From Rhodobacter sp. TJ_12 (GTDB taxonomy: Bacteria > Pseudomonadota > Alphaproteobacteria > Rhodobacterales > Rhodobacteraceae): a stretch of DNA of 64,000 nt. A program made the position numbers and the translations under genes. The first letter of the stretch is position 1. Each line of letters opens with the position of its first letter. The notes beneath the pieces were generated by a model. It was not told where the DNA came from. It saw nothing but the letters and a program-made list of their open reading frames with translations, and ran no database searches. This document shows, one piece after another, positions 4,262 through 64,000 of the stretch. The DNA is taken from assembly GCF_020023995.1 (NCBI RefSeq), contig NZ_NRRD01000018.1, forward strand, positions 1 through 64,000. Reading direction: 5' to 3'.

Positions 4262-4385
4262 GCTTGCCGCGCGGCACGCGCCATGGGTGCCGACCTGCTT
4301 CGATCGGGCAAAGGCCCGGTAAAGAGGGATTCTGCTTTCATCAAAGGGCTGGACAGATGTTCAGTCGGACCGCAGGATTGAGGGC

Positions 4386-5858: not shown

Positions 5859-5937
5859 CCGGCGCGGATCTGCGCACGCACCGGAAAGTGGGGCAGCATT
5901 GCCCCGCATTCGCGGTTAGGCGACATACGTTCAAAAT

Positions 5938-5972
5938 GCAAAAGGCGCGCCCGGTGAAGGCGCGCCTTTTGC
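5938..5972. terminator. Bidirectional intrinsic terminator
   Basis: A perfect 14-bp inverted repeat, GCAAAAGGCGCGCC with GGCGCGCCTTTTGC, surrounds a 7-nt loop. Each arm ends in a run of four A/T pairs, so it can end transcription from both the PopZ-like gene and the convergent gene at 5991. Confidence 0.85.
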
Positions 5973-5990
5973 CATTTGGCTTCGCGGAGC

Positions 5991-6311
5991 TTAGGCCGCT
6001 TCGGCCTCTTCGGCAGCCATGCGGCGTTCGCTTTCTTCGCGCGACAGCGCAACCGAGGTGCGGACCCCTTTGGTGACGAATTCCATCAGGCCTTTGACCA
6101 CGCGTTCGTTCGGGTCAATCCCGGCGCAGGACAGAACTTCGCGCCCATCCCGCGAGCGCGCCCAGCGGGCGATCTGCTCGGGGCCATTGCCATATTTCTT
6201 GTCATCGGCAATCGCATCATCCAGCGCAGCAAGAACCACGGCAGCAAAGAGCTTCCGTGCCCGCTGGCCTTGCTCATAGTTGAATGCGGAGCCGTCAACG
6301 AAATCGCGCAT
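5991..6311 (-). CDS. Conserved Rhodobacterales protein (DUF6280-like)
   Basis: A 106-residue soluble protein. The sequence is very regular and charged: MRDFVDGSAFNYEQGQRARK, VVLAALDDAIADDKKYG, IARWARSRDGREVLSCAG, then a Glu/Ala-rich tail. It matches a small family that I recall as almost universal in Rhodobacterales and annotated DUF6280; the name is from memory. The single Cys lies in VLSCAGIDPNERV. It is a lone gene, convergent with the PopZ-like gene and sharing its terminator. No function is known to me. High conservation within the order suggests a housekeeping role. Confidence 0.75.
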   Translation of the reverse strand: MRDFVDGSAFNYEQGQRARKLFAAVVLAALDDAIADDKKYGNGPEQIARWARSRDGREVLSCAGIDPNERVVKGLMEFVTKGVRTSVALSREESERRMAAEEAEAA

Positions 6312-6637
6312 TTTCTGTCCTTTTTATTGCTCTTGCGTTTCCTGGCGTGGCGGTCATGTAGGGCGCTTGCGAACCGATTCGATATGGCCTCAAAGACATA
6401 ACTGCCATGCATTTTTTGCATGGGTGGGTTTGTTCCCGCCCGTATTTAGGGCCTGTTAACGAGAACAGCCGGGCATATATGGCCATCTTGACCAATTGTT
6501 CAAGGTTTAATCGCGCAAAAGTCCGGCCAAGGGCTGGCCGCAAGCCGGGGCAGGCACGCGTGGGTGGCAAGGAGTTGTTAGGGCTGATTGTGGCGCGCTA
6601 TCGCGGATTTGTGAACGGCATGGGGCGGGGCGGCAGA
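6312..6637. other. Divergence region without a gene
   Basis: About 325 bases upstream of the DUF6280-like gene and downstream of ygfZ. The notable element is a perfect 7-bp dyad CCATGCA/TGCATGG at 6405-6423 with a loop of five Ts, roughly 95 bases before the minus-strand gene, which could be an operator or a weak stem-loop. The sequence from 6440 to 6520 is relatively AT-rich. The longer frames here are antisense to ygfZ or lack coding character. Confidence 0.4.
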
Positions 6638-7363
6638 TCAAAGCGCGTGAAGCTGAGCCGGTCCCGCGCTGAGCGGCCCATCCAGCGCATCATGACGCAT
6701 TTGCGCCAGCGCCCGCCCGCCCGATTGGGTGAAAAGCGTGCCAACCGTGCGCGCCCCCGAAACGATCGGCGTGCCGATCGGCGCCGCGCCGGAAATCGCC
6801 AATTGCACCAAGCCTTTGCGCAATTCGGTTTTATGCTTCATCCGGGCGGTGACTTCCTGCCCGACATAGCAGCCTTTGCGGAAATCCACGCCATTCAGCC
6901 GCTCGAACCCGGCTTCAAGAATATAGGTTTCGGGGGTCAGTTCGATCCCGGTTTCGGGGATCATATGGGCCACGCGCAGCGCGTCCCAATCGCTGCCATC
7001 CTCGCCGCTTTCGGCCCCGTATAGGCGCCAGCCCATTTCGGCACAGCGTGGGTCCGCCACGGCCCCTTCGGGCGCGGGACCAGTGCCGCGAAACACCTGA
7101 AGGTCCGAGGGCGTGATCGCCACATCGGCGCGCAGCTTATACATCATCAGCCGTTTCACCGTCGCCTCGGCCAAGCTGGCCGCGATATCAAGCAAGATCG
7201 TATCGCCTTGTGGAACAAGGAAGAAATCGGCCAGATATTTGCCCTGTGGCGTCAGCAGCGCCGCGTAGATCGGCCCTTGGGCCAGTTTCTTGACATCGTT
7301 GCTCACCAGCCCTTGCAGGAAATGCTCCCGGTCGGGGCCGGTTATTTCATAGATCGTGCGCAT
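6638..7363 (-). CDS. ygfZ: YgfZ/GcvT-like folate-binding protein
   Basis: 241 residues of the YgfZ family, which uses tetrahydrofolate to help maintain or assemble iron-sulfur cluster enzymes. The signature K-G-C-Y-x-G-Q-E is present as KGCYVGQEVTARM at residues 163-175, with the essential Cys at 167. The N-terminal half has the GcvT-type folate fold (FLQGLVSNDVKKL, LTPQGKYLADFFL). AAGGAGG lies 5 bases before the ATG. Length is typical of alphaproteobacterial members, somewhat shorter than the E. coli protein. It is transcribed away from the ABC exporter gene upstream, with about 45 bases between them. Confidence 0.88.
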   Translation of the reverse strand: MRTIYEITGPDREHFLQGLVSNDVKKLAQGPIYAALLTPQGKYLADFFLVPQGDTILLDIAASLAEATVKRLMMYKLRADVAITPSDLQVFRGTGPAPEGAVADPRCAEMGWRLYGAESGEDGSDWDALRVAHMIPETGIELTPETYILEAGFERLNGVDFRKGCYVGQEVTARMKHKTELRKGLVQLAISGAAPIGTPIVSGARTVGTLFTQSGGRALAQMRHDALDGPLSAGPAQLHAL

Positions 7364-7408
7364 GGTGCCTCCTTACCCCGATATGGCCAACGATATGGGT
7401 GGCGAACG

Positions 7409-9184
7409 TCATTCGACAAGCTGCATCCGGCACAACCCCGCATAGGCCCCGCCGCGCGCCAAAAGGTCGTCATGCGTGCCTTCTTCGACCACCTCGCCCG
7501 CGACGATGACCACGATCTTGTCGGCATTGCGCACGGTGGATAGCCGATGCGCGATCACCAGCGTGGTGCGCCCTTGCGATAGCTCGGCCAGCGCTTGCGC
7601 CACCTTTGCCTCGGAGGCGGTATCCAGCGCCGAGGTCGCCTCGTCCAAAAGCAAGATCGGCGCATCGCGCAGCACGGCGCGCGCGATCGCCACGCGCTGG
7701 CGCTGTCCGCCCGATAGCGCCGAACCGCGCGGCCCGGCGGGGGTATCAAGCCCTTCGGGTAGGGTAGCCGTGAATTCGCTGACATGGGCGGTGTCCAAGG
7801 CGCGGGCGAGCGCCGCCTCGCTGACATCTGTGCGGCCCAGCAGGATGTTTTCGCGGATCGTTTCGTCAAAAAGCGCCGCATCTTGGGTCACTGTCGAAAA
7901 CAACTGGCGCAGCGCGGCAAGATCCAGTGCGGTCACAGGCACGCCCCCCACCGAGATCGCGCCCGATTGCGCATCGACGAGCCGGGTCAACAGGTTGAAC
8001 ACACTCGATTTCCCTGCCCCCGAGGGGCCAACCAGCGCGGTGGTTTGCCCGGCTTCAGCGGTAAAGGAGAGCCCGCGCAGCACCGGTTTGGTGCCATAGG
8101 CGAAATCGACCTTGTCAAAGCGCACTGCGGTGGTGGCGGGGAGCGCCTTCGGTGCGGCCGGAGAGGTCACGGCGGGTGTGATGTCAAACACCCGGTACAG
8201 CCGTTCCAGACTGGCCGCGGCCGTTTGCCAGATCCCCGCAAGCCCGCCCAAGCGGCGCAGCGGCTGAAAGGCCAGCGCCATGGCGGTAAAGAAAGACATG
8301 AACTCGCCCACCGTGCGTTCCCCCGCGACGATCTGCGGCCCCCCCAGCACCAAAACGGCAAAGAAGCCCAGCCCGGTGACCGCATCGATCAGCGCGGGAA
8401 TGGTGGATTGCGACAGCGCCATTTTCACCATGGCTTGGCGGATCTGCGTCACCAGCTTGTCGAACCGGGCGACCTGATAGCCCTCCATCTGGTAAAGCTT
8501 GACTGCACCGACGCCGTGAAACACCTCGTCCAGCCGGGTGGCGCGCGCACCCGATTGGTGGCGCATCTGCCCGGTCTTGCGCCGGATATAGCTTTGGGCA
8601 AGCGCGGTGGGTGCGATCAAAAGCGGGGCTCCGATCAGCGCGGCCAAGGTCCAACGCCAGTCGATAGAAATGGCCACGGCGAAAAGCGCGATCAGCGAAA
8701 TCGCATCGCGCCCAGCCCCGGTGATGAACACCTGCCACACCCCCTGCACCGCCAAAGTGTCGCCTTGCACCCGTTCAATCAGCGCGCCGGGCGGGTTTTC
8801 CTGAAAAAAGCTTTGGTCAAGTCGCAGGATATGGCGCAGCAAATCCACTTGCATATCGCTTGAGGCGCGCTGCGCCACATCGGTCAAAAGTCCGCGCGCC
8901 CCGATCGACGTGACCGCGCGGATCAGGAACAGCCCAAAGATCGCCCCGCCAACCAGCCAGATCAGCCCGGATTGCCCCGCGCCAAAGACCTTGTCAAAGA
9001 GCGGCTCCAGCATCCAGCTCAGGACACCCAGACAGCCCCCCTCGACCGCCAGAAGCAGGGCGGCGAGCGCCATCTTTTTCCAATGGCGCCAAAGATAATC
9101 GCGCCAGATCCGCCCGAAAAGGGCGCGCGATCCATAGCGTTCCGCGCGCGGGGCCGTGGGGGCGGGGTCGGTCGAATGGGTCAC
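7409..9184 (-). CDS. ABC exporter, fused permease/ATPase (MsbA-like)
   Basis: A half-transporter of 591 residues that would act as a homodimer. The N-terminal two thirds holds about six membrane segments (MALAALLLAVEGGCLGVLSW, LIWLVGGAIFGLFLI, ISLIALFAVAIS). The C-terminal ATPase has Walker A GPSGAGKSS, signature LSGGQRQR, Walker B ILLLDEATSAL and the H-loop VIAHRLSTV. I use the GTG at 9184 (VTHSTDP), which has AGAGG before it; an ATG 60 bases upstream is also possible. It resembles MsbA and other lipid or drug exporters; the substrate cannot be told from sequence. It precedes ygfZ on the same strand. Confidence 0.85.
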   Translation of the reverse strand: MTHSTDPAPTAPRAERYGSRALFGRIWRDYLWRHWKKMALAALLLAVEGGCLGVLSWMLEPLFDKVFGAGQSGLIWLVGGAIFGLFLIRAVTSIGARGLLTDVAQRASSDMQVDLLRHILRLDQSFFQENPPGALIERVQGDTLAVQGVWQVFITGAGRDAISLIALFAVAISIDWRWTLAALIGAPLLIAPTALAQSYIRRKTGQMRHQSGARATRLDEVFHGVGAVKLYQMEGYQVARFDKLVTQIRQAMVKMALSQSTIPALIDAVTGLGFFAVLVLGGPQIVAGERTVGEFMSFFTAMALAFQPLRRLGGLAGIWQTAAASLERLYRVFDITPAVTSPAAPKALPATTAVRFDKVDFAYGTKPVLRGLSFTAEAGQTTALVGPSGAGKSSVFNLLTRLVDAQSGAISVGGVPVTALDLAALRQLFSTVTQDAALFDETIRENILLGRTDVSEAALARALDTAHVSEFTATLPEGLDTPAGPRGSALSGGQRQRVAIARAVLRDAPILLLDEATSALDTASEAKVAQALAELSQGRTTLVIAHRLSTVRNADKIVVIVAGEVVEEGTHDDLLARGGAYAGLCRMQLVE

Positions 9185-9334
9185 GCGGGCCTCTGGGTCA
9201 TGGCGGGATGGGTTCGGGATAGCGCGATTGGCGCAAGGCGGCAAGGCACGCGGGATTTGTGCCCGTTACAACGCCTGCGTTGACAGGGTGCGCGGCGCGG
9301 GACTACCGCTTTTCCACCCGATTGGAGACTTCCC

Positions 9335-10549
9335 ATGACCCCGCGTTCCAGCCTTGCCCATGGCCGTTCCTATCTTGCCATTCCCGGCCCTTCGGTGATG
9401 CCGGAACGGGTGCTGGCGGCGATGCATCGCTCTGCCCCCAATATCTATGAAGGCGATCTGGTCGATCTGACCGCGCGGGTGGTGGCCGATTTGCGCCGCG
9501 TCGCGCTGAGCACCGGGCATGTGGCGATCTATATCTGTAATGGTCATGGCACGTGGGAGGCTTCGGTCGCGAACCTGTTTTCGCGCGGGGATAAGGTGTT
9601 GTCCTTGCAAACCGGGCGGTTCGGCGTGGGCTGGGCGGTGCAGGCTCAGGCGATGGGCGTGACGGTCGAAGCGTTGGATTTCGGCCTGTCTGCGCCGGTC
9701 GATCCGAACCGGGTAGAGGCCGCTTTGCGCGCCGATCCGCGCCACGAGATCAAGGCGGTACTGCTGACCCATGTCGATACCGCCACCTCTATCCGCAATG
9801 ACGTGGCGGCGGTGCGCGCGGCGATGGATGCGGCGGGGCATCCGGCGCTTTTGGCGGTGGATTGCATCGCCTCGCTTGCCTGTGATGCGTTTCGTTTCGA
9901 CGATTGGGGCGTCGATGTGATGCTAGCGGCCAGCCAAAAGGGGCTGATGGTGCCGCCGGGGCTGGGGTTTGTTTGGGTGTCGGATAAGGCCGTGGCGGCG
10001 GGCCAATCCGCCGATCTGCGCACGCCCTACTGGAATTGGGGGCCGCGGCTCGCGCCGGAATTCTATTACCAGCATTTTGGCGGCACTGCGCCCACGCATC
10101 ATCTGTTTGGCATGGCGGAATCGCTGACGATGATCTTGGAAGAAGAGGGGCTTCCCCATGTTTGGGCACGCCACCGCGCCTTGGCGCGGGCGGTGGGGGC
10201 CGCGTTCGAGGCATGGGGGCAGGGCGGCGCGATTGCGCTGAATGTCGCTGACCCGGCATTCCGTGCGGGCTCGGTTACCGCGGCGCGGATTGCCCAAGGC
10301 GGGGCGGAGCGTCTGCGCCGCTGGTGCGAGGCCGAGGCAGGCGTGACGTTGGGCATTGGGCTTGGCATGGCCCCGCCCGGCACGCCCGAGGCCGATGATT
10401 TTTTGCGTGTCGCGCATATGGGCCATGTGAATGCGCATATGACGCTGGGCGTTTTGGCGGTAATGGAGGCCGGGCTGCAAGCGCTGTCGATCCCGCATGG
10501 AACGGGCGGCATTCAGGCCGCCGCCGCCGTTGTGGCGGCTGGGGCGTAA
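9335..10549 (+). CDS. Class V aminotransferase (serine/alanine-glyoxylate type)
   Basis: 404 residues, PLP fold type I. It starts with the family signature YLAIPGPSVMPERVLAAM and has the phosphate/cofactor region NGHGTWEASVANLFSRGD, the PLP-ring aspartate in LAVDCIAS (D176) and the Schiff-base lysine in ASQKGLMVPPG (K202). The ending MTLGVLAVMEAGLQAL is typical. The likely reaction is transfer of the amino group from serine or alanine to glyoxylate, as in the serine cycle or photorespiratory salvage, though some relatives are aspartate or pyruvate aminotransferases. The gene stands alone, divergent from the ABC exporter, with a TTGACA -35-like hexamer at 9280. Confidence 0.85.
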   Translation: MTPRSSLAHGRSYLAIPGPSVMPERVLAAMHRSAPNIYEGDLVDLTARVVADLRRVALSTGHVAIYICNGHGTWEASVANLFSRGDKVLSLQTGRFGVGWAVQAQAMGVTVEALDFGLSAPVDPNRVEAALRADPRHEIKAVLLTHVDTATSIRNDVAAVRAAMDAAGHPALLAVDCIASLACDAFRFDDWGVDVMLAASQKGLMVPPGLGFVWVSDKAVAAGQSADLRTPYWNWGPRLAPEFYYQHFGGTAPTHHLFGMAESLTMILEEEGLPHVWARHRALARAVGAAFEAWGQGGAIALNVADPAFRAGSVTAARIAQGGAERLRRWCEAEAGVTLGIGLGMAPPGTPEADDFLRVAHMGHVNAHMTLGVLAVMEAGLQALSIPHGTGGIQAAAAVVAAGA

Positions 10550-10553
10550 CGGG

Positions 10554-10940
10554 TCAGCGCTGGCCGTGTTTGACAAGCCAGCCTTCCAACCAGTCCAGCT
10601 CGGCCTGATCGCGTTCCAGCATCGCCTTGGCGCGCTGGCGCAGCGCGGGGTCGGCGCCGTTTTCAAGCACGATCCGCGCCATCTCCATAGCGCCTTGGTG
10701 GTGGGGCACCATCGCACGCACGAAATCAAGATCGGCGTCGCCGGTATAGGGGGTGCTCATCCCGGTTTGCATTCGGGCGCGGGCCGCCTCGAATGCCGGG
10801 GTCGAAGGGGCGGCATCGGCCGTCGCGCTGGCCGTGGGATGGGGTGGGGGCGCAGGCAGATCACCGGCATAGGCGCCAAACGTCAGCGCGAAAGCAAGCG
10901 GGCTGAAAAGGGCAAGAGAGCGTCGGGTTCGGGGGGACAT
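10554..10940 (-). CDS. Secreted DUF305 protein
   Basis: 128 residues. The start at 10940 (MSPRTRRSLALF) is fixed by a perfect AAGGAG six bases upstream. Residues 1-25 are a signal peptide and a Pro/Ala-rich linker follows. The rest is a DUF305 (ferritin-like helical) domain: DADLDFVRAMVPHHQGAMEMA with the His-His pair and Met residues, then RAKAMLERDQAELDWLEGWL. Members are often found near copper-handling genes, and the His/Met pattern suggests metal binding in the periplasm; no metal genes are adjacent here. It is convergent with the aminotransferase, with only 4 bases between stop codons. Confidence 0.85.
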   Translation of the reverse strand: MSPRTRRSLALFSPLAFALTFGAYAGDLPAPPPHPTASATADAAPSTPAFEAARARMQTGMSTPYTGDADLDFVRAMVPHHQGAMEMARIVLENGADPALRQRAKAMLERDQAELDWLEGWLVKHGQR

Positions 10941-11017
10941 CTGCGACTCCTTCATCGGTGTCGGCAGAGTGGCGCAGCCGCGCTGTTGGGGGCAAATCAA
11001 GGCCGCGCGAGAGCGGC

Positions 11018-11047
11018 GTGAGCCCGCGCCCAAAAGCCCGGGCTCAC
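11018..11047. terminator. Stem-loop between two minus-strand genes
   Basis: GTGAGCCCG pairs perfectly with CGGGCTCAC (9 bp) across a 12-nt loop, just after the stop of the DUF6858-like gene. No T-run follows, so it may be a weak or Rho-assisted terminator or an RNA-stabilising hairpin. Confidence 0.5.
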
Positions 11048-11061
11048 ACTGTGTTGAGCGA

Positions 11062-11457
11062 TCAGCCCTTCAGATCGGCCAGCGACTTGCACCACGCTTC
11101 CATTTCCTTGGTCGCCAGTTCCATCGGCGGCTCAAGGAACGTCAGGTGGAAGGCCTCGCCAAGATCGGCCACGCCGATCGCGCGCGGGCGCACAGCCAGC
11201 ACATGGGCATTGGGCAGCGCCACGCCAAAGCAGAAAACGATGTTCTGCGCGGCGAGGATCGAGCGGTCGATCGTGCCTTCGATGGCGGTGGTGTGGGCGT
11301 AATGGTCGAAGGTGGCGATATAGGCGACCTTCGGATGGGCATCGATTTTTTCCTTCAGCTTGGCCATCACATCATCGACGGTGGCGCAGCTTGTTTCGGT
11401 CTTTGGAAGGGTCAGGTCGAAGACCGGATATTTCTCCATCAAAAGATACTGTTTCAT
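11062..11457 (-). CDS. Conserved hypothetical protein (DUF6858-like)
   Basis: 131 residues starting at MKQYLLMEKYPVF, with AAAGGTCAGG before the ATG. Recognisable text is KTETSCATVDDVMAKLKEKI, YIATFDHYAHTTAI and ILAAQNIVFCFGVALPN. The frame remains open upstream into the aminotransferase gene, but that part is shadow sequence. I recall similar proteins as DUF6858, of unknown function. FDHYAHT and the two cysteines could bind a metal or cofactor, but that is speculation. It follows the HisC-like gene on the same strand by about 58 bases and may be co-transcribed. Confidence 0.65.
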   Translation of the reverse strand: MKQYLLMEKYPVFDLTLPKTETSCATVDDVMAKLKEKIDAHPKVAYIATFDHYAHTTAIEGTIDRSILAAQNIVFCFGVALPNAHVLAVRPRAIGVADLGEAFHLTFLEPPMELATKEMEAWCKSLADLKG

Positions 11458-11515
11458 GCCTGACCTTTCCCGTGGATGTATCTTTTGAAATGGCTGCACG
11501 GGCCTAGGGGATGGG

Positions 11516-12634
11516 TCAACCCGGCGTTCTGTCGCGGGCGCGTGCCAACGCATCGGGCAGCGCGGCGGCCAAGGCGTGCATCTCTGGTTCGGGGCCGCAG
11601 GAAATGCGGATGCAGCGGTCTTGTGGGGCCACGCCAGGTTTGCGCACGAACACATCGGCTTGTGCCAGCTCTTCCAGAACGGCGGTGGCAAAGGCCCCAT
11701 CCGCGCCGCAATCGACGGCGACGAAATTCGCCGCCGAGGGCAGCGGCTCCAGCCCGTTGTCGCGCGCGATTTGCGCGATGGTGTTGCGCGAGCCTTCGAC
11801 CAAGCGGCGCATATAGGCAAGCCATGTTTTGTCTTGCAGCGCGGCCAGCGCCCCCGCCTGAGACATCCGGCACATGCCGAAATGATTGCGGATCTTGTCA
11901 AAGGCGGCGATCAGTTCGGGGTGGGCAAGCGCATAGCCGACCCGCGCCCCCGCCAGCCCATGCGCCTTGGAAAAAGTGCGCATGCGGATCACACGGGGAT
12001 CATTGGCGTCTATCGGGGCCTCGGTCCCTTCGGGCGCCAGTTCGACATAGGCTTCATCCAGAACCATCAACGTGCCACTGGGCACCCGGCTGACCATCTC
12101 CGCCATCACTGTGCCGGGGTGATGGGACGCCATCGGATTGTCGGGGTTAGAGATGTAAAGCAGCTTGGGGCCGATCTCGGCGGCCTTGGCCAAAAGCGCC
12201 TCGGGGTCTTCGTGGTCGCCCTTATAGGGCAGCTTGTGCAAGATGCCGCCAAAGCCGGTGACATGGAAGTTGAAGGTCGGATAGGCCCCGTCCGAGGTCA
12301 CGACGCTGTCGCCCGGTTCGATCAGCAACCGGCACAGATAGCCTAAAAGTCCGTCGATCCCCTCGCCGACGATGACGTTTTCGGGCGCGCAGCCGTGATG
12401 CGCGGCCAGCGCATGGCGCAGGTCGTGGTTTTCCGCATCGCCATACATCCACGCTTCGCCCGCCGCGGCGGCCATCGCGGCAATCGCGCGGGGGCTGGGG
12501 CCGAACCCGTTTTCATTCGCGCCGAGCCGGGCGGTGAAGGGGCGGCCCCGGCGGCGTTCCAGCGTATCGGGCCCGACAAAGGGCACGTTGGCGGGCAGGG
12601 CGGCGACAAGCGGCGTGTAGCGTGGCTGGGTCAT
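11516..12634 (-). CDS. HisC-like PLP aminotransferase
   Basis: 372 residues, class I/II aminotransferase of the histidinol-phosphate aminotransferase family. Visible motifs are LGANENGFGPSPRAI at the N-terminus, YGDAENHDLRHALA, the PLP aspartate region ISNPDNPMAS, LDEAYVELA, and the Schiff-base lysine in TFSKAHGLAGARVGY (K223). No other his genes are nearby, so the true substrate could be histidinol phosphate, an aromatic amino acid or another imidazole/aryl compound. It may be one of several HisC paralogs in the genome. It begins a minus-strand pair with the DUF6858-like gene. Confidence 0.8.
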   Translation of the reverse strand: MTQPRYTPLVAALPANVPFVGPDTLERRRGRPFTARLGANENGFGPSPRAIAAMAAAAGEAWMYGDAENHDLRHALAAHHGCAPENVIVGEGIDGLLGYLCRLLIEPGDSVVTSDGAYPTFNFHVTGFGGILHKLPYKGDHEDPEALLAKAAEIGPKLLYISNPDNPMASHHPGTVMAEMVSRVPSGTLMVLDEAYVELAPEGTEAPIDANDPRVIRMRTFSKAHGLAGARVGYALAHPELIAAFDKIRNHFGMCRMSQAGALAALQDKTWLAYMRRLVEGSRNTIAQIARDNGLEPLPSAANFVAVDCGADGAFATAVLEELAQADVFVRKPGVAPQDRCIRISCGPEPEMHALAAALPDALARARDRTPG

Positions 12635-56070: not shown

Positions 56071-56925
56071 TTAGCGCACCAACAAAACCGGGCTGTGGCA
56101 GGTGCGGATCATCTCGGAAGTGGTGGAGCCCACGATCATCGTGCGGATGCGCGAATGGCCGTAAGCCCCCATCACCAGAAGGTCGAACCCTTCTTCTTCC
56201 TCGATCCGGCCCAGAACGGCGGCGGGTTGGCCCGCAATCACCTCGGTCGTGGCCTTGATCCCGGCTGCGCCCAAAAGCGCGGCGGCATCGTCAAGGCTGC
56301 GGCGCGCCTCGGAGGTGTCATGGCCGATGGTGACAAGGCGCACGGAAAGCCCGGCAAAGATCGGGCTGCGGGCCATGAAATCCACCGCGCGCATCGCCGA
56401 GGGGCCGCCATCCCACGCCACCAAAATCCGTTCCACGGGTTTGAAGGCGCGCGCGGCCACAAACACCGGGCGATGGCTGGCCCGCACGATCCGCTCTAGG
56501 TTTTGGCCCAGTGCCCGGTCGGGCTTTTCGGCGGTTTCACCGCGCTTGCCGATCAGCACGAGGCTGGCAGCAAGGTCTTGTTCGCCCACGGTTTCGGCAA
56601 TCTCGCCATGGCGCAAATGCGGGGTTACGGCCTCGACGCCCGCGTCGCGGATCACGGCGGTCGCGTCATCCAAGATGGCACGGCCCCGATGCGCCACCAG
56701 CTTGGCGCGTTGTTCGTCCAGGCTGGCCAATTCTTGCATCAGGGCGGTGCGCGCGCCCAGCTTGATGGAGCCCGAATAGTCAGAGGGCGCGGCGGCTTCG
56801 CGCGGGCCCAGCACATGCACAAGGTCGATAGCCGCGTCGCCGCGTTTGGCGATCCAGGCGGCGTATTCACACAGGCTGTGCGAATAGATCGAGCCGTCGA
56901 CGAAGGCGATGATCGTGTCGGTCAT
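56071..56925 (-). CDS. Universal stress protein with two UspA domains
   Basis: 284 residues from MTDTIIAFVDGSIYSHSLCE. Domain 1 (1-140) has LVLIGKRGETAEKPDRALGQ; domain 2 (150-284) has VERILVAWDGGPSAMRAVDF and the ATP-type G-x-x-G region LVMGAYGHSRIRTMIVGSTT. The tandem form can dimerise within one chain. GGGGGAAAAG precedes the ATG. It starts 16 bases after the sulP stop, so the two are one operon. It may link transporter activity to energy stress. Confidence 0.87.
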   Translation of the reverse strand: MTDTIIAFVDGSIYSHSLCEYAAWIAKRGDAAIDLVHVLGPREAAAPSDYSGSIKLGARTALMQELASLDEQRAKLVAHRGRAILDDATAVIRDAGVEAVTPHLRHGEIAETVGEQDLAASLVLIGKRGETAEKPDRALGQNLERIVRASHRPVFVAARAFKPVERILVAWDGGPSAMRAVDFMARSPIFAGLSVRLVTIGHDTSEARRSLDDAAALLGAAGIKATTEVIAGQPAAVLGRIEEEEGFDLLVMGAYGHSRIRTMIVGSTTSEMIRTCHSPVLLVR

Positions 56926-56941
56926 GGTCTTTTCCCCCGCC

Positions 56942-58432
56942 TCAATGCGCATTCAGCTTGTCAAGCGCATCGGGTTTGTCATGCAGCGCCAGCTTGTCCA
57001 CGATGGTCTCTGACGCCTCGTTCATGCCGATGATTTCCACCGTTGCGCCATCGCGGCGGAACTTCAACACGGCCATGTCCAGCGCGGCAACGGACGAAAT
57101 GTCCCAGATATGGGCATGGCTGACATCGATGGTGACGTGTTCCAGCGCCTCGCGGAAGTCAAAGGCGCGCATGAAATCTTCGACACTGGCGAAGAAAAGC
57201 TGCCCTTCGATGCGGTAGGTGCGCGCGCGGCCATCGGGCGAAAGCGTCGATGTGACGCGGAAGAGCTGCGCGATTTTGGCGGCAAAGAAAATGCCAGACA
57301 GCAGCACGCCCAGCACCACGCCAATGGCCAGGTTATGGGTCCAAACCACTGCGGCCACGGTCGCCAGCATGACGATGGAGCTTGAGGTCGGGTGGCTGCG
57401 CAACGCCTTCATCGACGACCAAGAGAAGGTCCCGATCGAAACCATGATCATGATCGCGACCAGCGCGGGCATCGGAATCTGGCCGACCCAATCGCCCAAG
57501 ACGACGCAGAAGAACAAAAGCATCACCCCGGCGGTGAAGGTCGACAGCCGCCCCCGCCCGCCCGATTTCACGTTGATCATCGATTGGCCGATCATCGCAC
57601 AGCCCGCCATGCCACCGATAAAGCCGGTCGCTGTATTGGCGATCCCTTGGCCGATGCATTCTTGGTTGCGGTCCGATGTGGTGTCGGTCAGGTCATCGAC
57701 AATCTGCTGCGTCATCAGGCTTTCCAAAAGCCCCACCACGGCCACCGCGACCGAATAGGGGAAGATGATTTGCAGCGTCTCAAAGGTCAGCGGAATGTCC
57801 GGGATCAGGAAAACCGGCAGCGTATCGGGCAGCGCGCCCATGTCAGACACGGTGCGCACATCCCAGCCAAAGAAGATGGTCAGCGTTGTCAGCACGATAA
57901 TGGTGACAAGGGGCGAGGGCACGGCGCGGGTGATGAGCGGGAACAGATAAATGATCGCAAGCCCGGCCGCGACCAGTGCATAGGTCATCCATGTCACGTG
58001 GCGCGGGTCTAATTCGGGCAATTGCGCCATGAAAATCAGGATCGCGAGCGCATTCACAAAGCCCGTCATCACCGAGCGCGAAACAAAGCGCATCACCCGC
58101 CCCAGCTTGATGACCCCGGCCCCGATCTGGATCAGGCCCGCCAAAACGGTGGCGGCCAGCAGATATTCCAGCCCGTGATCGCGCACCAGTGTGACCATCA
58201 GCACCGCGGTGGCGGCGGTGGCCGCCGAAATCATGCCCGGGCGCCCGCCGGTGATTGCGGTGATCACCGCAATCGAAAAACTGGCGTAAAGGCCCACTTT
58301 CGGGTCGACCCCCGCGATGATGGAAAACGCGATGGCTTCGGGAATAAGGGCCAGCGCCACGACAAGGCCTGACAGGACATCGCCGCGGATATTGCCAAGC
58401 CATTGGCTGCGATAGGCGGAAAGGGACAGCAT
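56942..58432 (-). CDS. SulP family anion transporter with STAS domain
   Basis: 496 residues from [20 protein letters not shown]. The SulP signature is [20 protein letters not shown], with about twelve membrane spans. The C-terminal STAS domain includes [20 protein letters not shown] and [20 protein letters not shown]. Members carry sulfate, bicarbonate or other anions; substrate is not determinable here. The STAS domain may interact with regulators. It is followed by a universal stress protein gene. Confidence 0.9.
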
Positions 58433-58741
58433 GGAAAACCTCTTCGACGACCGGAGGGCGCGGGCCGGTGGGGTGGGTTTGCATTGGGTGGTCAGAGTGC
58501 GTTCATCCGGCACAAACGATACGCAAGGCGACCGGCCGGGGTGGTTCGGCCTCTCCCTAAACAGCCGCGCAGGACTTGCCAAGCCCGCAATCGCCTTGGG
58601 CATAGGCTCATGCGCGCATGTTGGATTGTTGGGCAGAGCGCGCAACAATCGCCAAAAACGCGGGCGCTGCGGCGACGCAAGCAGGATCGATGCTATCCGA
58701 GGGGCGTTATCAAAGGAAGAGAGATGGTGCTGCAAGAGAGG

Positions 58742-58776
58742 ATTGAATTTTCGTCGCCTACCTCTAAAAATTCAAT
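58742..58776. repeat. 10-bp inverted repeat at the island edge
   Basis: ATTGAATTTT and AAAATTCAAT are perfect arms with a 15-nt spacer at the point where base composition changes. It may be a weak terminator or a recombination feature. Confidence 0.4.
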
Positions 58777-58823
58777 TAAAGCATTGATATATTGTGTAAA
58801 AAGTAGGATTTGGAGATTCGCAC

Positions 58824-58856
58824 TGGTACAGTCCGATGGTACAGGTATTGGTACAG
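58824..58856. repeat. Three direct TGGTACAG repeats
   Basis: TGGTACAG occurs at 58824, 58837 and 58849, spaced 13 and 12 bases, about one helical turn plus. Such phasing suits cooperative protein binding or integrase arm sites. Confidence 0.55.
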
Positions 58857-59057
58857 AACACCAGCGAATCGAAGCCTGCGTCAGCAGGCGATCACGGTGA
58901 TTAAAAATGGCACATTGTTAGCTTCCGCGTCGCTTGAAACGCCGCATGAAAGAAATGGCGCATGCTCGGAAGCGGCCTTTTGCTGTCGTTCATCGGTGGA
59001 TGGAGATTCTGCGGTCGCAGCCCATTCTGCCGACATTGGCGGAATTCAACCTTTGGA

Positions 59058-59203
59058 TGCCAGCCACAGTAAGTGTGTGCATTGCTGCTCAAGACGACCT
59101 CTTGCGCGGACTGTACGATCCATGTGGTCAACGCAAGGCTGAACACCGCAGTTTGATCGCCCGTCTGTACCGCAAAACGAGTCACGGTAAAACGTGGCTG
59201 GCA
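59058..59203 (-). ncRNA. Candidate DRT3 ncRNA carrying an ACACAC template
   Basis: Read on the minus strand, TGCCAGCCAC (59203-59194) pairs perfectly with GTGGCTGGCA (59067-59058), enclosing about 126 bases. Inside are a CTTGCG/CGCAAG stem (59137-59132 with 59106-59101) and a CAAGA/TCTTG hairpin. The tract GCACACACTTACT lies directly before the 3' arm. The region starts 18 bases after the second RT gene ends. I recall that DRT3 systems contain a ncRNA whose ACACAC serves as RT template; that knowledge is from memory. The ends and any separate promoter are unknown. Confidence 0.5.
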
Positions 59204-59220
59204 CCCGACTTCAAGATATC

Positions 59221-61227
59221 CTAGGCGTAGACGCTGCTCAATTCTTTCTTTTCGATCATGTTCAACAGGTCGATCCCATCCCAGCGAACAAACCAATGCT
59301 GCTGTTGGATTTCGTCGATTAGCGCTTCGGCCTCGGCAACAGTGATGCTTCCGGAGTTCGCGCCAATCCTGTTCCATGAAGCCCGAAGCAACTTAGCTCT
59401 CTCGGCCCTGTCCAGATAGGGACAAGCGAGGGAGTCCAGCAACAGATGCACTGCTTCAGAATCCCTATTCAGGTACTTCTCTGACGAAAATCGCTTACAG
59501 ATGAAATCCCAAATTTGGTTCCTCTGAAGAGCGAACTCCGGTCGATCACCATAGATGAATAGCTTTACGACCAACTCGAAGTAACCTTGGCTCTTTCTGT
59601 CCAGTTTGGCGAGCGAGATCAGCTCGTGCTCCAGTTGCCCATCGCCCCCAAATTGTTGAAGACTAACCAGAATGTTGAGTATCTCGATAGGGATCACAGA
59701 ATTTTTTGAAAACAAGCCTTCGAAGCTAGGTGCACTTGCCAATTGTGACGCCCAACGAAGGGAGGCTTCTTTGAGAATGTCAAAACCTTCAGCATCATGT
59801 TCTTGCAGATGCTGCGCAGCGCGCACGATGGCGTGAGACAGGCGAAGCGAGGACGCGACAGTTGGGTGAAGCGTAAAGAAGTAAAATCCAACATCGAGCA
59901 AGAAAAAGAACATTTGGCGATAGTCCCGCTCGACAACAGGACTTTCTTCCAACGCGACAAGATCAATGTACCCGTCAGCTATATCAATTACTTTCCGGCG
60001 CACGGCCCCAATAACATAGCTTGCGACCGCATCGTAACCAAGCTCGGAGGAAAAGCATGCTGCCTTAACCTCTCTGGTAAACTTTCCGAACAATGACCGA
60101 TACTTGTAAATGTACTTCGGGAATAACGCCTTCTTACCGCTCGCAGGCAGGGTAACAGTTTCAAAGAGCTTTTCCCAATGAGCGCCAAGGGAATTATTGA
60201 TCTCGTCGATCACCAGAGACTTTTTCGAGTAGAATGGCCGCTTGTCGAACTCTCTTTTCCCAGTATTCAGGTGCAGATTGTACTCTCGCAACGCGATTGA
60301 TAGCTCGTGCTCCACCTGCTCGGCAATCGCAGGGTCATTGGTAAAAACATAGTAGTTGTCCACGTACCGCCTGCACTCATAGTCGACACCATCACGTATG
60401 GCAGGGCTTTTCGATTCAAGGTTACGGCGTGCATTCTGATCCACCTTTGCAAGAATGATTTCTGCAAAGATGCGACTGGCCTCCGGACCAATGCAGATAC
60501 CACTAGTCTCGCCGTGATTGAGCCTTTGCATTACCGTATCGAACTGGTTTCCAAAACTCAGAGCGTGCTTATTATCTTTCGCCTCATCCTTGCTCTTCGT
60601 CGCCCACGCCATGGAATGCGTGTAAATGCTGTCAAAGCATTTGCTGATATCCAGAGATAACTGATATCGAAACTTTTTTTCCAAGCGAATGTGATCGTTT
60701 GAAGCGAAAAATTTGTAGAGGCGCTCAAATCCTGAATATGCGAAATAGCTTGCCGGGTTACGCACCAGTTTATCCAACTCCGCCGTATCCACGGTAGCGT
60801 TCTTGTATTGATTCTTGTCCTGCACTGGGGATGGCACAAAAAAGGAATTCCCAACTTTCTTAGGCGCACGAATGGAGAACGGTCCCCGCCCGGAATACTC
60901 GCAGATCAACTCCTCGTATTTTTGATAAAAATCAGCCAATATGACCTGACCCCTCGGATGCAGGAGGCTCAAGGTTCTGACGCTTCGAGAATCTTTGACG
61001 ATATTGTACCTTAGCGGAACGGTGTAGCTCTTGCCGTCGTCTTTCAGCAAAAGGGCGTTCACCAAATCTTGGAAGTGCGCCGATTTCTTGGCTACCCCAT
61101 GAAGGTTTTTGTAGAAACCATCGTTGCTTACGATTATCGGCACCTCAAAAGGTGACGTGTCTGTGAGCACCACGCGCCACTTGTCGGCTCGGCTTAGGTT
61201 GACCCGTGACTTCCTCTTGCTAGGCAT
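59221..61227 (-). CDS. drt3b: DRT3 second reverse transcriptase (Drt3b, UG8-like)
   Basis: 668 residues. The start (MPSKRKSRVNLSRADKWR) overlaps the end of the first RT gene by 8 bases. RT motifs: YQLSLDISKCFDSIYTHSMA with catalytic D193; GETSGICIGPEASRIFAEII, the GxxxGP form used by UG/Abi RTs; RRYVDNYYVFTND with Y288-V-D-N291, where most RTs have YxDD; LHLNTGKREFDKR. From about residue 380 on the chain is all helical (KVIDIADGYIDLVALEESP, LLLDSLACPYLDRAERAKLL), like the helical-repeat domain of abortive-infection RTs. GC is clearly lower than the chromosome. It is identified by size and pairing with the 413-residue RT. Confidence 0.8.
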   Translation of the reverse strand: MPSKRKSRVNLSRADKWRVVLTDTSPFEVPIIVSNDGFYKNLHGVAKKSAHFQDLVNALLLKDDGKSYTVPLRYNIVKDSRSVRTLSLLHPRGQVILADFYQKYEELICEYSGRGPFSIRAPKKVGNSFFVPSPVQDKNQYKNATVDTAELDKLVRNPASYFAYSGFERLYKFFASNDHIRLEKKFRYQLSLDISKCFDSIYTHSMAWATKSKDEAKDNKHALSFGNQFDTVMQRLNHGETSGICIGPEASRIFAEIILAKVDQNARRNLESKSPAIRDGVDYECRRYVDNYYVFTNDPAIAEQVEHELSIALREYNLHLNTGKREFDKRPFYSKKSLVIDEINNSLGAHWEKLFETVTLPASGKKALFPKYIYKYRSLFGKFTREVKAACFSSELGYDAVASYVIGAVRRKVIDIADGYIDLVALEESPVVERDYRQMFFFLLDVGFYFFTLHPTVASSLRLSHAIVRAAQHLQEHDAEGFDILKEASLRWASQLASAPSFEGLFSKNSVIPIEILNILVSLQQFGGDGQLEHELISLAKLDRKSQGYFELVVKLFIYGDRPEFALQRNQIWDFICKRFSSEKYLNRDSEAVHLLLDSLACPYLDRAERAKLLRASWNRIGANSGSITVAEAEALIDEIQQQHWFVRWDGIDLLNMIEKKELSSVYA

Positions 61228-62461
61228 ACTTCCAGCACTCCATTAACTTTGCCAACCGATCAGCAGTGAATCGGAAGTGAACGCGGTTGGCGAACCCGCA
61301 GACGAATGAGTACTTGAGAAGCTCCTTTCTTTGACGGTTTGTCAGAGACAGCGCGAGCCTTCCTCCAATCGCCCCTGAACGGCACAGAACCATCGCCGAG
61401 AAAAACTTATCAAGCTCGGCGAGCGCCGGTGCGTTACTGTTGATAAGGCTGTATGTGTGCTGAAGGCCCGCACTTCGCTTCTTTTGCTGTCTTTCGTCAA
61501 AGAACTGATAGCCACAGGTCAAAATACGGATGCGATCTATTAGGTCGTCAAAGTTTCCGTCAGCCAAGTACTGCAGGAGCGATTTCACGATCCTCGTCTT
61601 GTTCTTTTTAACCTTTGAGTCGGCAATGTCTAAATCAACTTGACGAGCGAGAGGCCGGTCTTTGCCGATTTGGTGGACGCTAAACCTAAAGCCGAGGTAA
61701 TCGAAGCTGTGCTCAACTGCTGCCGGCTTTACCTTCGCGCCTCCGAAGGTGTATATTTTTGATTTGGAGGAATTCAATTTCAGCCCCGTCGGCAGGGCCC
61801 TTTCGATATTATTCTTGAGCGTCTTTGGGTGTTCCAATTCAGGCAAGATGAGCACGATATCATCTACGTATCGAGCAAAATAATGTGCACCAAAAATCTC
61901 CTTCATATGGCGGTCGAACTCCTGCATATAGAATTCGCTAAGCTCCGCACTTATTGCTAAGCCTTGAGGCAATCCGCCTACAGAATTCATTTTGCAATGG
62001 TGAATCAGCGAGTTGACAACAGATCTTGTGCTTGGAGCAGTTATAAGCCTTCGATTCAGCAGGTTCGATAGTGTCTCCTGATCAACGGAAGGGTAGAAGC
62101 TCTTTATGTCCATCTTCGCAATGGTGAACGGCATGCCTTCTTCACAGAACAGTTTTAGTCGGCGTACAATTTCGATCCGGCTTCCCTGTTTTGATGCTGT
62201 AATTCTACGGATGTTCTGAGCAGCTTTTCGCAGCACCAGATCGCACGCCAGATCATTTACTTGATATATAGTCCGGCCAGCCAACTTATTCGGCGTCAAT
62301 GGCAAAGAGGAGAAACCATTTCGCGCTGTGTTGACTGCCTGAGAAATCAAAGCTTCCCTGTGGGCTTCGTTCTTCAATGTGGGATGTTTAAGGAAATCGC
62401 TTTTGTTTAGGTGTCTTGCAAGTGCCGTGCTGCCAAATGTGGGATCGTACATGAAAGTCAC
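61220..62461 (-). CDS. drt3a: DRT3 first reverse transcriptase (Drt3a, UG3-like)
   Basis: 413 residues. GTG at 62461 (MTFMYDPTFG) is the longest start; an ATG nine bases in (62452) is an alternative. RT motifs in order: PFTIAKMDIKSFYPSVDQET (D118), NSVGGLPQGLAISAELSEFY (GLPQG 163-167), YFARYVDDIVLILPE (YVDD 198-201), LKLNSSKSKIYTF and FDYLGFRFSV. All catalytic residues are present, unlike the partner. No maturase X, HNH or intron RNA is present, so it is not a group II intron, and no retron msr/msd is visible. Low GC and AT-rich codons mark it as acquired. It is the upstream gene of the pair. Confidence 0.82.
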   Translation of the reverse strand: MTFMYDPTFGSTALARHLNKSDFLKHPTLKNEAHREALISQAVNTARNGFSSLPLTPNKLAGRTIYQVNDLACDLVLRKAAQNIRRITASKQGSRIEIVRRLKLFCEEGMPFTIAKMDIKSFYPSVDQETLSNLLNRRLITAPSTRSVVNSLIHHCKMNSVGGLPQGLAISAELSEFYMQEFDRHMKEIFGAHYFARYVDDIVLILPELEHPKTLKNNIERALPTGLKLNSSKSKIYTFGGAKVKPAAVEHSFDYLGFRFSVHQIGKDRPLARQVDLDIADSKVKKNKTRIVKSLLQYLADGNFDDLIDRIRILTCGYQFFDERQQKKRSAGLQHTYSLINSNAPALAELDKFFSAMVLCRSGAIGGRLALSLTNRQRKELLKYSFVCGFANRVHFRFTADRLAKLMECWKYA

Positions 62462-62905
62462 TTTCGCCTATTCTCTTCAACCTTACGCCGAAAGCTGACC
62501 ACATGGAAAGCACTGGATCGAGGGCGACGTCCGCTCGAAGGAAGTCAAATACCGTGTTCGCTATCGCAGCGAACGGCCACTTCTCACCCCGTGCGACAAA
62601 CCTAGGGCAGCAAATGGCTAGCTTAGGCGTCGAAGAATAGTGTCGACTGCCCATCTTTTCTGGGGAGGAGCGCTGGGAAGAAGATGCAAAACTCAAGATC
62701 AAAAATTGGTATTTAAACCGACACTATGCAACGCATTAAATTGCATGTCGTAAATGTAACATTATGAATGGAACGCGTTCTGCAACTCGCTAACGGCTAC
62801 TGCACCGCTTCTCGGCCCCAGCCCATAGCCCCCCCTTTGGGTCCCTGAGCATGGAAGAACGTGTCCACGTGATGTTTAGGTGGAGAAGCCCGCTGACGCG
62901 GACTA
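62462..62905. promoter_or_regulatory. Leader region upstream of the RT pair; no gene
   Basis: About 440 bases. A stem-loop GTTCGCT/AGCGAAC lies at 62556-62574. A second dyad, ATGCAA (62726) with TTGCAT (62741), extends to CGAC/GTCG and sits in very AT-rich sequence around 62700-62765, the best place for the promoter of the minus-strand genes. On the right, 62790-62905 is GC-rich again and belongs to the recombinase end. No convincing coding frame is found. Confidence 0.45.
62888..62901. repeat. 14-bp direct repeat, left copy
   Basis: GCCCGCTGACGCGG, identical to 63876-63889, flanking the serine recombinase gene. It lies just beyond the stop of that gene. In GC-rich DNA a chance match of this length is uncommon but possible. 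Confidence 0.5.
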
Positions 62906-63580
62906 TCAGACCGCCAGCCTTCGCCGCACATTCGCCACGCTGGAGGCGTGCCACATACCTCCGCGTGCGGTCTTTATACCACGCCGGTTGAGCTCTGACG
63001 CCATCGCCGCAAGCGTACGATGGCCCTGTTCCGCCACATCTGCAAGGACGTCTGCGAGCTCGTAGGCGCGCGCCAGCGCATCGGCTTTCTGAGCCGCACA
63101 TGACGCCTTGTTGCCCTTGCCTGCGCGCCGCAGGGCTTCCGCGCCATTCGGGTTGCCCAGCGCCTGCCCTCGAGCTTTGGCGGCTTGCAACGCAGCTTTT
63201 GTGCGCTCGCTAATGGCGCGGGCTTCATCCTGTGCCACGAGGGCCAGAATACCAATCGTCAAAGGGGTAGCGGTTGGGTTATCGCAGGCGACGAAGTCCA
63301 CCCCGGACTCCTGTAGATTGAGCAGAAAAGCAGCATTTCGACTGAGCCGGTCGAGCTTCGCAATTACTAGCTTAGAGCCGGTGAGCTTTGCCAACTTGAG
63401 TGCGGCTTGAAGCTGCGGGCGGTCCGCCTTGCGCCCGGACTCCACTTCGGTGAACGCGCCGACGATCTGGGCCGCGTTAGCGGCTGCATAGGCGGCAATC
63501 GCGGCCTCCTGAGCTTCCAGCCCAAGCCCGCTGCGCCCCTGCCGGTCGGTGGAAACGCGGGTATAGGTGACGATCTTCAC
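62906..63580 (-). CDS. Serine recombinase (resolvase/invertase family)
   Basis: 224 residues from the GTG at 63580 (VKIVTYTRVSTDRQG), with GGAGG eight bases upstream. The nucleophile is Ser10 in YTRVSTDRQG; the catalytic arginines are in VIAKLDRLSRNAAFLLNL. An E helix and a C-terminal helix-turn-helix follow (LAAMASELNRRGIKTARGG, MWHASSVANVRRRLAV). It is the small resolvase/invertase class, not a large phage integrase. Downstream on the same strand is the RT pair. It may be a plasmid or transposon resolvase that helped the island move. Confidence 0.9.
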   Translation of the reverse strand: MKIVTYTRVSTDRQGRSGLGLEAQEAAIAAYAAANAAQIVGAFTEVESGRKADRPQLQAALKLAKLTGSKLVIAKLDRLSRNAAFLLNLQESGVDFVACDNPTATPLTIGILALVAQDEARAISERTKAALQAAKARGQALGNPNGAEALRRAGKGNKASCAAQKADALARAYELADVLADVAEQGHRTLAAMASELNRRGIKTARGGMWHASSVANVRRRLAV

Positions 63581-63594
63581 GGCGAATTCCTCCA

Positions 63595-63634
63595 ATATAA
63601 ACTGGCGCAACGCCCGTTAGGTCAGTTTGTATAT
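63595..63634. promoter_or_regulatory. Res-like dyad upstream of the recombinase
   Basis: ATATAAACTG (63595-63604) faces CAGTTTGTATAT (63623-63634), an imperfect dyad with an 18-nt spacer just upstream of the GTG. This is the position where resolvases bind their own res subsite and promoter. Confidence 0.4.
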
Positions 63635-64000
63635 CAGCTTCACTGCTGCGTCTATCTTGTTCGGCAACTGGAATCATGAACAACCAATTTCCATTGTTGG
63701 CGAAGTTTGGTGGCTCGCCTTTAGGCCAAGTGTAGCAATTGCCCGGGGGAAAGTTGCTCTCGCGCGGCTGCGCGGCGACTTAAGGGCACTTGGGAGAGCG
63801 AGCTGTGCCTGCCGATCTGGTGCGTACGAGATTACGATAGGTGCGGGGGCGCGGGAAAATAGATCGCGCGCCCGCGCCCGCTGACGCGGGGCGGAGCTAA
63901 CGACAGGGGTGGGGAAAAACAGAACCGGGCTAAGAAAAGCGGAAGCCTTTACGACAGGCAGGGGAAAGGGGCGAAGCCTTCACGACAGGCGCCGGATGAG
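63611..64000. repeat. Right edge: repeated ACGACAGG elements, no gene
   Basis: No credible gene in about 390 bases. The sequence GAAGCCTTTACGACAGGC (63942-63959) recurs as GAAGCCTTCACGACAGGC (63973-63990), with a period of 31 and one mismatch, and a third ACGACAGG stands at 63900-63907, followed by similar GGGGAAA text. A 14-bp direct repeat copy lies at 63876-63889. The repeats may continue beyond the window. They could be plasmid-type iterons or part of a mobile element. Confidence 0.55.

Follow-up and report, generated by a model that had tools for sequence, protein, structure and literature searches.

A probable complete DRT3 antiphage system carried by an integrative island at tRNA-Thr(GGT) in Rhodobacter sp. 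TJ_12

The first 64,000 nucleotides (nt) of the 78838-nt contig NZ_NRRD01000018.1 of Rhodobacter sp. TJ_12, hereafter the window, carry with high probability a complete type 3 defence-associated reverse transcriptase (DRT3) antiphage system. This system is made up of drt3a, drt3b and a downstream non-coding RNA (ncRNA), sits as cargo within an integrative island at tRNA-Thr(GGT), and would work through poly(GT)/poly(AC) double-stranded DNA (dsDNA). DRT3 systems are characterized by a hexameric complex, the production of poly(GT)/poly(AC) dsDNA, and phage defence. An earlier reading of the letters alone (the sequence-only reading) had proposed two overlapping reverse transcriptase (RT) genes of 413 and 668 residues, and both open reading frames (ORFs) were confirmed, each on the minus strand and with an overlap of 8 nt:

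61220–62461, minus strand: drt3a (UG3, Class 2 reverse transcriptase, 413 aa), from PADLOC, NCBIfam and PDB matches, with its YVDD box intact
59221–61227, minus strand: drt3b (UG8, Class 1 reverse transcriptase with a helical C-terminal part, 668 aa), from PADLOC, NCBIfam, PDB and AlphaFold2

Among the PADLOC models, that of Drt3a scored 449.8 bits for the 413-aa protein (109.3 for the runner-up class, UG17) and that of Drt3b 695.2 bits for the 668-aa protein (164.9 for the runner-up, Drt6), while the NCBIfam models assigned the pair to NF041747 (Drt3a, 353.1 bits, cut-off 200) and NF041748 (Drt3b, 602.2 bits, cut-off 350). The model E-values, down to 2e-209, rule out a chance match. The PDB sequence search agrees, with 9z6y_A as the solved chain nearest to Drt3a (E=6.8e-58), and 9z6y_H (E=6.5e-114), followed by the SUMO-fused RT 26cz_A (1.1e-84), as those nearest to Drt3b. 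The window thus contains a UG3 RT (Drt3a) with an adjoining UG8 RT (Drt3b), and the DRT3 assignment of the sequence-only reading stands. The AlphaFold2 model of Drt3b, built from 35 sequences, has a mean predicted local distance difference test (pLDDT) of 84.9 and a predicted template modelling score (pTM) of 0.85, and in a structure search its Class 1 relatives DRT6, DRT4/UG15, AbiK and Abi-P2 rank at the top, with no entry described as DRT3 among the best 50 matches listed (library up to April 2026). The aligned homologues of Drt3a begin at the Met that is residue 4 of the 413-aa ORF, and the gene therefore probably starts at 62452 (410 aa) rather than at the GTG at 62461.

In E. coli, the DRT3 ncRNA lies downstream of drt3b and contains an ACACAC template (PMC13174585). 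In the window, Rfam gave nothing between 58400 and 63700 at E<=1, for which reason the ncRNA was located by comparison:

59055–59206, minus strand: predicted DRT3 ncRNA of 152 nt, from the 5' arm to the 3' arm of the closing stem, based on fold and conservation
59193–59206, minus strand: 5' arm of the closing stem (14-bp ungapped helix), 17 nt past the first base of the drt3b stop codon
59073–59079, minus strand: CACACAC, the putative RNA template from which Drt3a would make poly(GT), positioned as in 88 of 93 DRT3 systems
59055–59068, minus strand: 3' arm of the closing stem (14-bp ungapped helix)

The ACACAC motif (59078-59073, minus strand), which extends to CACACAC, is the sole copy near the RT genes; the window holds five copies on its two strands, the next nearest lying more than 25 kb from that of the DRT3 system. 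The predicted fold of 59206-59055 has an energy of -62.9 kcal/mol and a z-score of -3.4, with none of 200 shuffles equally stable, while a previous fold, whose ends differed by a few nt, had a z-score of -1.93 and eight equally stable shuffles of 200. The closing stem has 13-14 bp, 13 of its 14 pairs being present in the minimum-energy fold, in which the template is unpaired directly before the 3' arm. At the level of sequence and predicted fold, then, a predicted RNA with ACACAC in a loop is found downstream of drt3b, and it is conserved in four close relatives. A 158-aa ORF that spans the ncRNA (58901-59377) had no match in Pfam or PHROG and was not accepted as a gene.

The Drt3b sequences used for comparison were drawn from 390 genomes of the order (41 of which matched Drt3b, 10 above the cut-off, including that of the window), from plasmids, and from genome contigs, of which the best 80 of 448 relatives were taken, so that the set leans towards the kin of the window. 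The final set has 96 sequences, including that of the window and some fragments, at a threshold of 150 bits and with two copies of the window removed. ACACAC is found within 300 nt of the drt3b stop codon in 88 of the 93 systems with at least 250 nt of downstream sequence, against a mean of 5.0 in mononucleotide shuffles. The five systems without it are L009, L010 and L046, with a broken or interrupted drt3b, and the Snodgrassella loci L063 and L072. The latter two have long drt3a and drt3b frames, and ACACAC was not found up to 700 nt downstream; their ncRNA may have been lost, moved or changed.

The closing stem was then scored with ungapped, position-limited arms, the 5' arm 9-26 nt after the stop codon and the 3' arm 0-19 nt after the template. 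A score of 20 or more was reached by 73 of 82 systems, compared with 612 of the 6642 mismatched arm pairings, and these 73 systems have 67 distinct 5' arms. The arms of a system were strictly its best pairing in 28 of the 82, and were among the top three in 57; a gapped duplex scoring separated poorly (own arms best in 10/86), and free ungapped scoring gave 20/86. The 82 systems are the 88 less six of a distant DRT3 group (L002, L003, L004, L039, L114 and L117), in which the template lies 31-57 nt past the drt3b stop codon, too near it for this test. Four of these six have no closing stem by the free ungapped method, and the 5' part of the RNA in this group, if any, may overlap drt3b. Given that the template recurs in 88 of 93 systems, and the closing stem stays paired in 73 of 82 while its sequence changes freely, the sequences point to a single product in this part of the DRT3 family, as seen in a sample drawn by likeness to the Drt3b of the window.

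The catalytic residues of Drt3b were read from the alignment to 26cz, numbered as E. coli Drt3b plus 108, with the equivalences counted by hand. This chain is taken to be E. coli Drt3b because E22, D182, R241, D278 and Y666 fit at the offset of 108. In this alignment, E22, R71, R241 and Y666 of E. coli correspond to E28, R84, R252 and Y667, so that the protein-templating residues and the priming Tyr are all present in the window, and a single residue follows the priming Tyr in E. coli Drt3b too. The metal ligands D182, I183 and D278 of the E. coli protein (PMC13174585) are likewise present, as D193, I194 and D290. Across 35 aligned Drt3b sequences, R84, R252 and Y667 do not vary, while the E28 site is E in 67 of the 96 sequences, D in 25, H in one and a gap in three.

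The YVDD box is intact in Drt3a, whereas in Drt3b it is replaced by YVDN, with Asn (N291) for the second Asp, a usual feature that the window therefore lacks. Position 291 is N in 14 of the 96 sequences and D in 82. In a tree of 95 sequences, from which the column of position 291 was excluded and L046 (also N) omitted as a fragment, 13 N-bearing sequences and the D-bearing L043 form one clade, with a Shimodaira-Hasegawa-like approximate likelihood ratio test (SH-aLRT) value of 98 by a quick method. This clade is mainly alphaproteobacterial. YVDN is found in 13 of its 14 members, some of which are only 33-38% identical to the Drt3b of the window, which argues that it has long been maintained. 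The state of this position changes only twice on the tree, too few events to relate YVDN to the residue following the priming Tyr. N291 is treated here as a lineage variant and not as a defining failure, since it lies outside the ligand list of PMC13174585 and the second Asp is not needed to pass the curated model. The main text of that paper does not contain YVDN, and no paper among the matches listed pairs Drt3b with it.

The limits of the DRT3 unit are given by relatives in distant hosts. The Drt3b of Loktanella sp. S4079 (L040), a Minwuia metagenome-assembled genome (MAG, L044) and Acetobacter indonesiensis (L042) are 82-93% identical to that of the window, and these loci share with it YVDN and the conserved ncRNA. 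Their DNA homology to the window is confined to the DRT3 unit (59004-62555 in L040, 59055-62452 in L044 and 59052-62458 in L042) and ends within some 50 nt of the 3' end of the ncRNA, and the drt3a of L040, unlike that of the window, consists of two ORFs. No family common to the window island was seen among nine neighbour proteins of L040, L042, L044 and L043. A phage origin finds no support, given that a scan of viral_contigs with one Drt3b query, a method sensitive only to close relatives, returned no match, and that the nine matches in the phage collection were all partial, none covering 80%. Losses are also seen among the relatives, with drt3b interrupted in L009 and L010 (in two pieces) and drt3a split in L040. 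A further locus, L041 (JAAAPI010000293.1), is 93% identical and shares 58982-62462, its drt3a end being limited by the contig edge; it is assigned to a Verrucomicrobia MAG, on a 3.6-kb contig with a coverage of 0.246 according to the contig name, and is possibly misbinned.

The island that holds this unit is 7.6 kb long (58724-66375 on the contig), lies at tRNA-Thr(GGT), and carries a tyrosine recombinase:

58724–64000, no strand: portion of the island inside the window, continuing to contig position 66375
58724–58747, plus strand: putative attL, a 24-nt direct repeat of the tRNA-Thr 3' end, from repeat comparison
58978–62715, no strand: cargo slot, with no DNA homology to the sister island and holding 58982-62555, shared with DRT3 loci of distant hosts
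62719–62750, minus strand: imperfect palindrome CGACATGCAATTTAATGCGTTGCATAGTGTCG, within a few nt of the right-hand joint of the cargo and shared with the sister island L146 up to this joint
62906–63610, minus strand: serine recombinase of the island backbone (Pfam Resolvase, 105.6 bits), with an 88.9% identical copy in the sister island
Contig 64689–66308, minus strand: tyrosine recombinase of 539 aa beside the tRNA (DUF6538, 30.2 bits; PHROG integrase, 64.9 bits)

The repeat, ATGGTGCTGCAAGAGAGGATTGAA, is found at 58724 and again at 66352-66375 on the contig, where it reaches into the 3' end of tRNA-Thr(GGT). The island is thus bounded by repeats of the tRNA 3' end, has its integrase beside the tRNA, and carries other cargo in a sister copy. 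The R, HxxR and Y of the tyrosine recombinase are visible in the alignment; it had zero matches among the PDB sequences. Because the gap in homology to the sister island contains the stretch shared with the DRT3 loci, two comparisons, independent of each other, delimit the DRT3 unit, and only some 160 nt on the right side of the slot (62556-62715) are matched by neither. The span of 58735-62780 given by the sequence-only reading comes near this slot, while the ncRNA, the repeat at 58724-58747, and the integrase and tRNA just beyond the window edge had been overlooked. The palindrome CGACATGCAATTTAATGCGTTGCATAGTGTCG is a possible recombination site for the serine recombinase.

The GC content is 0.491 in the cargo segment and 0.629 in positions 1-58000 of the window, as expected from the low-GC DNA noted by the sequence-only reading, and the GC content at third codon positions is 0.55-0.58 in both RT genes against 0.77-0.80 in three other genes of the window. 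Its proposal of horizontal transfer finds support in this low GC, in the 82-93% identical Drt3b in distant hosts, in the tRNA-bounded island, and in the island with other cargo in the same genus. It had also placed the pair beside a recombinase, which is true, but this gene is present in the sister island without DRT3 as well, and belongs to the island rather than to the DRT3 system.

The sister island was found in G439, one of 18 genomes of the same genus that were searched, at the same tRNA, with a 99.3% identical integrase and an 88.9% identical serine recombinase, and with no match to Drt3a or Drt3b:

L146 (G439:C5:1-11600), 3074-11002: sister island, whose AAA ATPase occupies the slot of DRT3
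L150 (G449:C82:1-12600), 5328-12049: another island at this tRNA-Thr, encoding a HEC-01A/B pair (493.5 and 180 bits)

G439 is homologous in DNA to the contig across 62716-67000 (where the query ended), 58724-58923 and 58919-58977, and shows no homology between 58977 and 62716. The two left pieces lie some 2 kb apart in G439, so its left side has an insertion of its own, which encodes a 369-aa protein with a weak likeness to type IV restriction enzymes (26.8 bits), while the AAA ATPase in the slot resembles that of retron type I-B (134.5 bits). The integrase of the G449 island is a different one (28% identity). Exact 24-nt copies beside the tRNA occur in 4 of 17 genomes (G000, G439, G440 and G449, with G450 left out), and G451 has a 91% copy. 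Judged by these sequence matches, the tRNA-Thr is a hotspot at which at least three genomes carry defence or defence-like genes, the cargo of G440 lying outside this count. A further integrase just outside the attL of L146 suggests tandem islands there.

Beyond the integrase and the tRNA, the next gene is of the EPSP synthase family and is probably murA. A search for an empty site through the left flank yielded no clean one in the four relatives fetched, in which this flank did not lie beside the tRNA. The UspA-like and SulP-type genes that adjoin attL (56071-58735) sit elsewhere in the G439 genome, from which it follows that relatives differ in what lies to the left of the tRNA. The non-coding backbone of the island has three copies of CCTGTCGT inside the window (contig 63900-63989), with the same spacing in L146 (8472-8561); three copies arose in 0 of 200 shuffles of either.

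One other aspect of the host concerns the enzyme that would keep the system in check. In E. coli, RecBCD limits the products of DRT3, and the phage protein Gam triggers the system (PMC13174585). In the genome of the window (completeness 100, 114 contigs), recC had no match and addA was present in full (1282.7 bits). A recC match was missing from all 10 same-family genomes with an intact or broken DRT3, including that of the window, and from 20 of 49 named DRT3 genomes of unstated completeness (these 49, mostly isolates, come from 80 named loci), which gives 30 of 59 DRT3-bearing genomes overall. Among these 30, addA scored above the alphaproteobacterial cut-off in 23, and the remaining seven, which their record titles place outside the Alphaproteobacteria, have weaker matches to the same addA model. 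Since recC was not found in the window host, RecBCD is an unlikely guard there and AddAB is the likeliest. In the portion of the literature covered, the terms "defense-associated reverse transcriptase" and AddAB co-occur in one paper, a general review.

By homology, Drt3a would copy the CACACAC loop of the ncRNA over and over, yielding poly(GT). Drt3b, on the other hand, would be primed by Tyr667, with Glu28, Arg84 and Arg252 standing in for a template, and would yield poly(AC), and the annealing of both products would give a repetitive dsDNA. A host end-processing nuclease, most likely AddAB in the window host, would hold this dsDNA at low levels until a phage disables the nuclease, after which the growth of the cell would stop.

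Other readings of the RT pair have to be set against the complete DRT3 system proposed here. Both proteins do match the group II maturase and retron RT models weakly, as an origin in a group II intron or a retron would have it, but the scores already refute that origin (TIGR04416, 77.4 and 31.7 bits against a cut-off of 300; NF038233, 54.4 and 25 bits against 235), and the search with RT class models, a check that the sequence-only reading had proposed, returned UG3 and UG8 with these two far below their cut-offs; Rfam, with zero matches at E<=1 across 58400-63700, showed no intron RNA nearby, and such a derivation has a negligible probability. The replacement of the second YVDD Asp by Asn, together with the broken copies of drt3b in L009 and L010 and of drt3a in L040, could alternatively mark a decaying or inactive DRT3 copy, YVDN being the sign of a lost polymerase function in Drt3b and the system surviving as relics only. 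This is improbable, given that drt3a and drt3b are both full length in the window, that its gating residues, priming Tyr, template and closing stem are all intact, that the metal ligands of PMC13174585 are present, and that YVDN has been kept in its clade down to 33-38% identity. The differing catalytic box of this clade might also mean that the Asn291 lineage makes another polymer, or that Drt3b is mainly a scaffold that stimulates Drt3a, as a catalytically dead E. coli Drt3b still raises the Drt3a product in vitro (PMC13174585). Both active sites are nevertheless required for defence in E. coli (PMC13174585), the selectivity residues E28, R84 and R252 and the primer Y667 are kept in the window, and ACACAC persists as its RNA template, from which complementary AC strands are predicted, so that this proposal, too, is given a quite low probability.

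Several observations weigh against a complete system that works through poly(GT)/poly(AC) dsDNA. Nine of 82 systems lack a closing stem scoring 20 or more, among them L052, L053, L055 and L059, of the sister group to that of the window, in which the template lies 174-230 nt past the drt3b stop codon with no strong closing stem, and whose ncRNA may have a different shape. Covariation lends the inner helices of the ncRNA little support, being seen at one of 47 pairs, in five close sequences of which the window row is 6 nt short; promoter-like sites are not in excess (five, where shuffles average 4.0), and the ncRNA is not followed by a terminator-like site. Catalysis by Drt3b may differ or be weaker with N291, and the role of AddAB as guard we infer from searches that covered recC and addA. 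What this analysis establishes is the identity of the genes, the sequence and predicted fold of the ncRNA, the residues, the structure of the island, the presence of addA and the lack of a recC match, from which we infer the transcription, products, assembly, trigger and defence of the DRT3 system of the window.

This analysis contributes the predicted ncRNA, the clade with YVDN, the many hosts in which recC had no match, and the cassette organization of the island. A review lists the reach of DRT3 and whether its subtypes make other motifs as open (PMC13314766). The YVDN clade is a natural test of which carboxylates are required by protein-templated synthesis, and, while the current DRT3 model rests on RecBCD as guard, another enzyme may serve in many hosts. 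A tentative and rather doubtful extension of these results is a mainly alphaproteobacterial DRT3 lineage in which Drt3b works with Asn for the second Asp, the dsDNA is policed by AddAB and not by RecBCD, AddAB-blocking phage proteins are the trigger, and the system moves as a single, replaceable unit of tRNA-Thr islands, exchanged at a serine-recombinase site by the cargo joint.

Among the known systems, DRT10 and DRT9 have a single RT each, and neither is known to have a protein-templated partner. They resemble DRT3 in having an ncRNA with a short RNA template that is copied repeatedly, as PMC13174585 states for Drt3a. The Drt3a and Drt3b of PDB 9z6y/9z6z are the nearest solved chains by sequence, over nearly their full length, although the sequences have diverged and the Drt3b of 9z6y has YVDD. 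The DRT3 of E. coli (UG3+UG8; PMC13174585) differs from that of the window in YVDD for YVDN, in a diverged Drt3b (288.5 bits over nearly the whole length in the 26cz alignment), and in the host, which in the window has addA and no recC match. It is alike in the order of the RT genes, the downstream ncRNA with its ACACAC template, the gating Glu and Arg residues, and the priming Tyr that adjoins the C-terminus.

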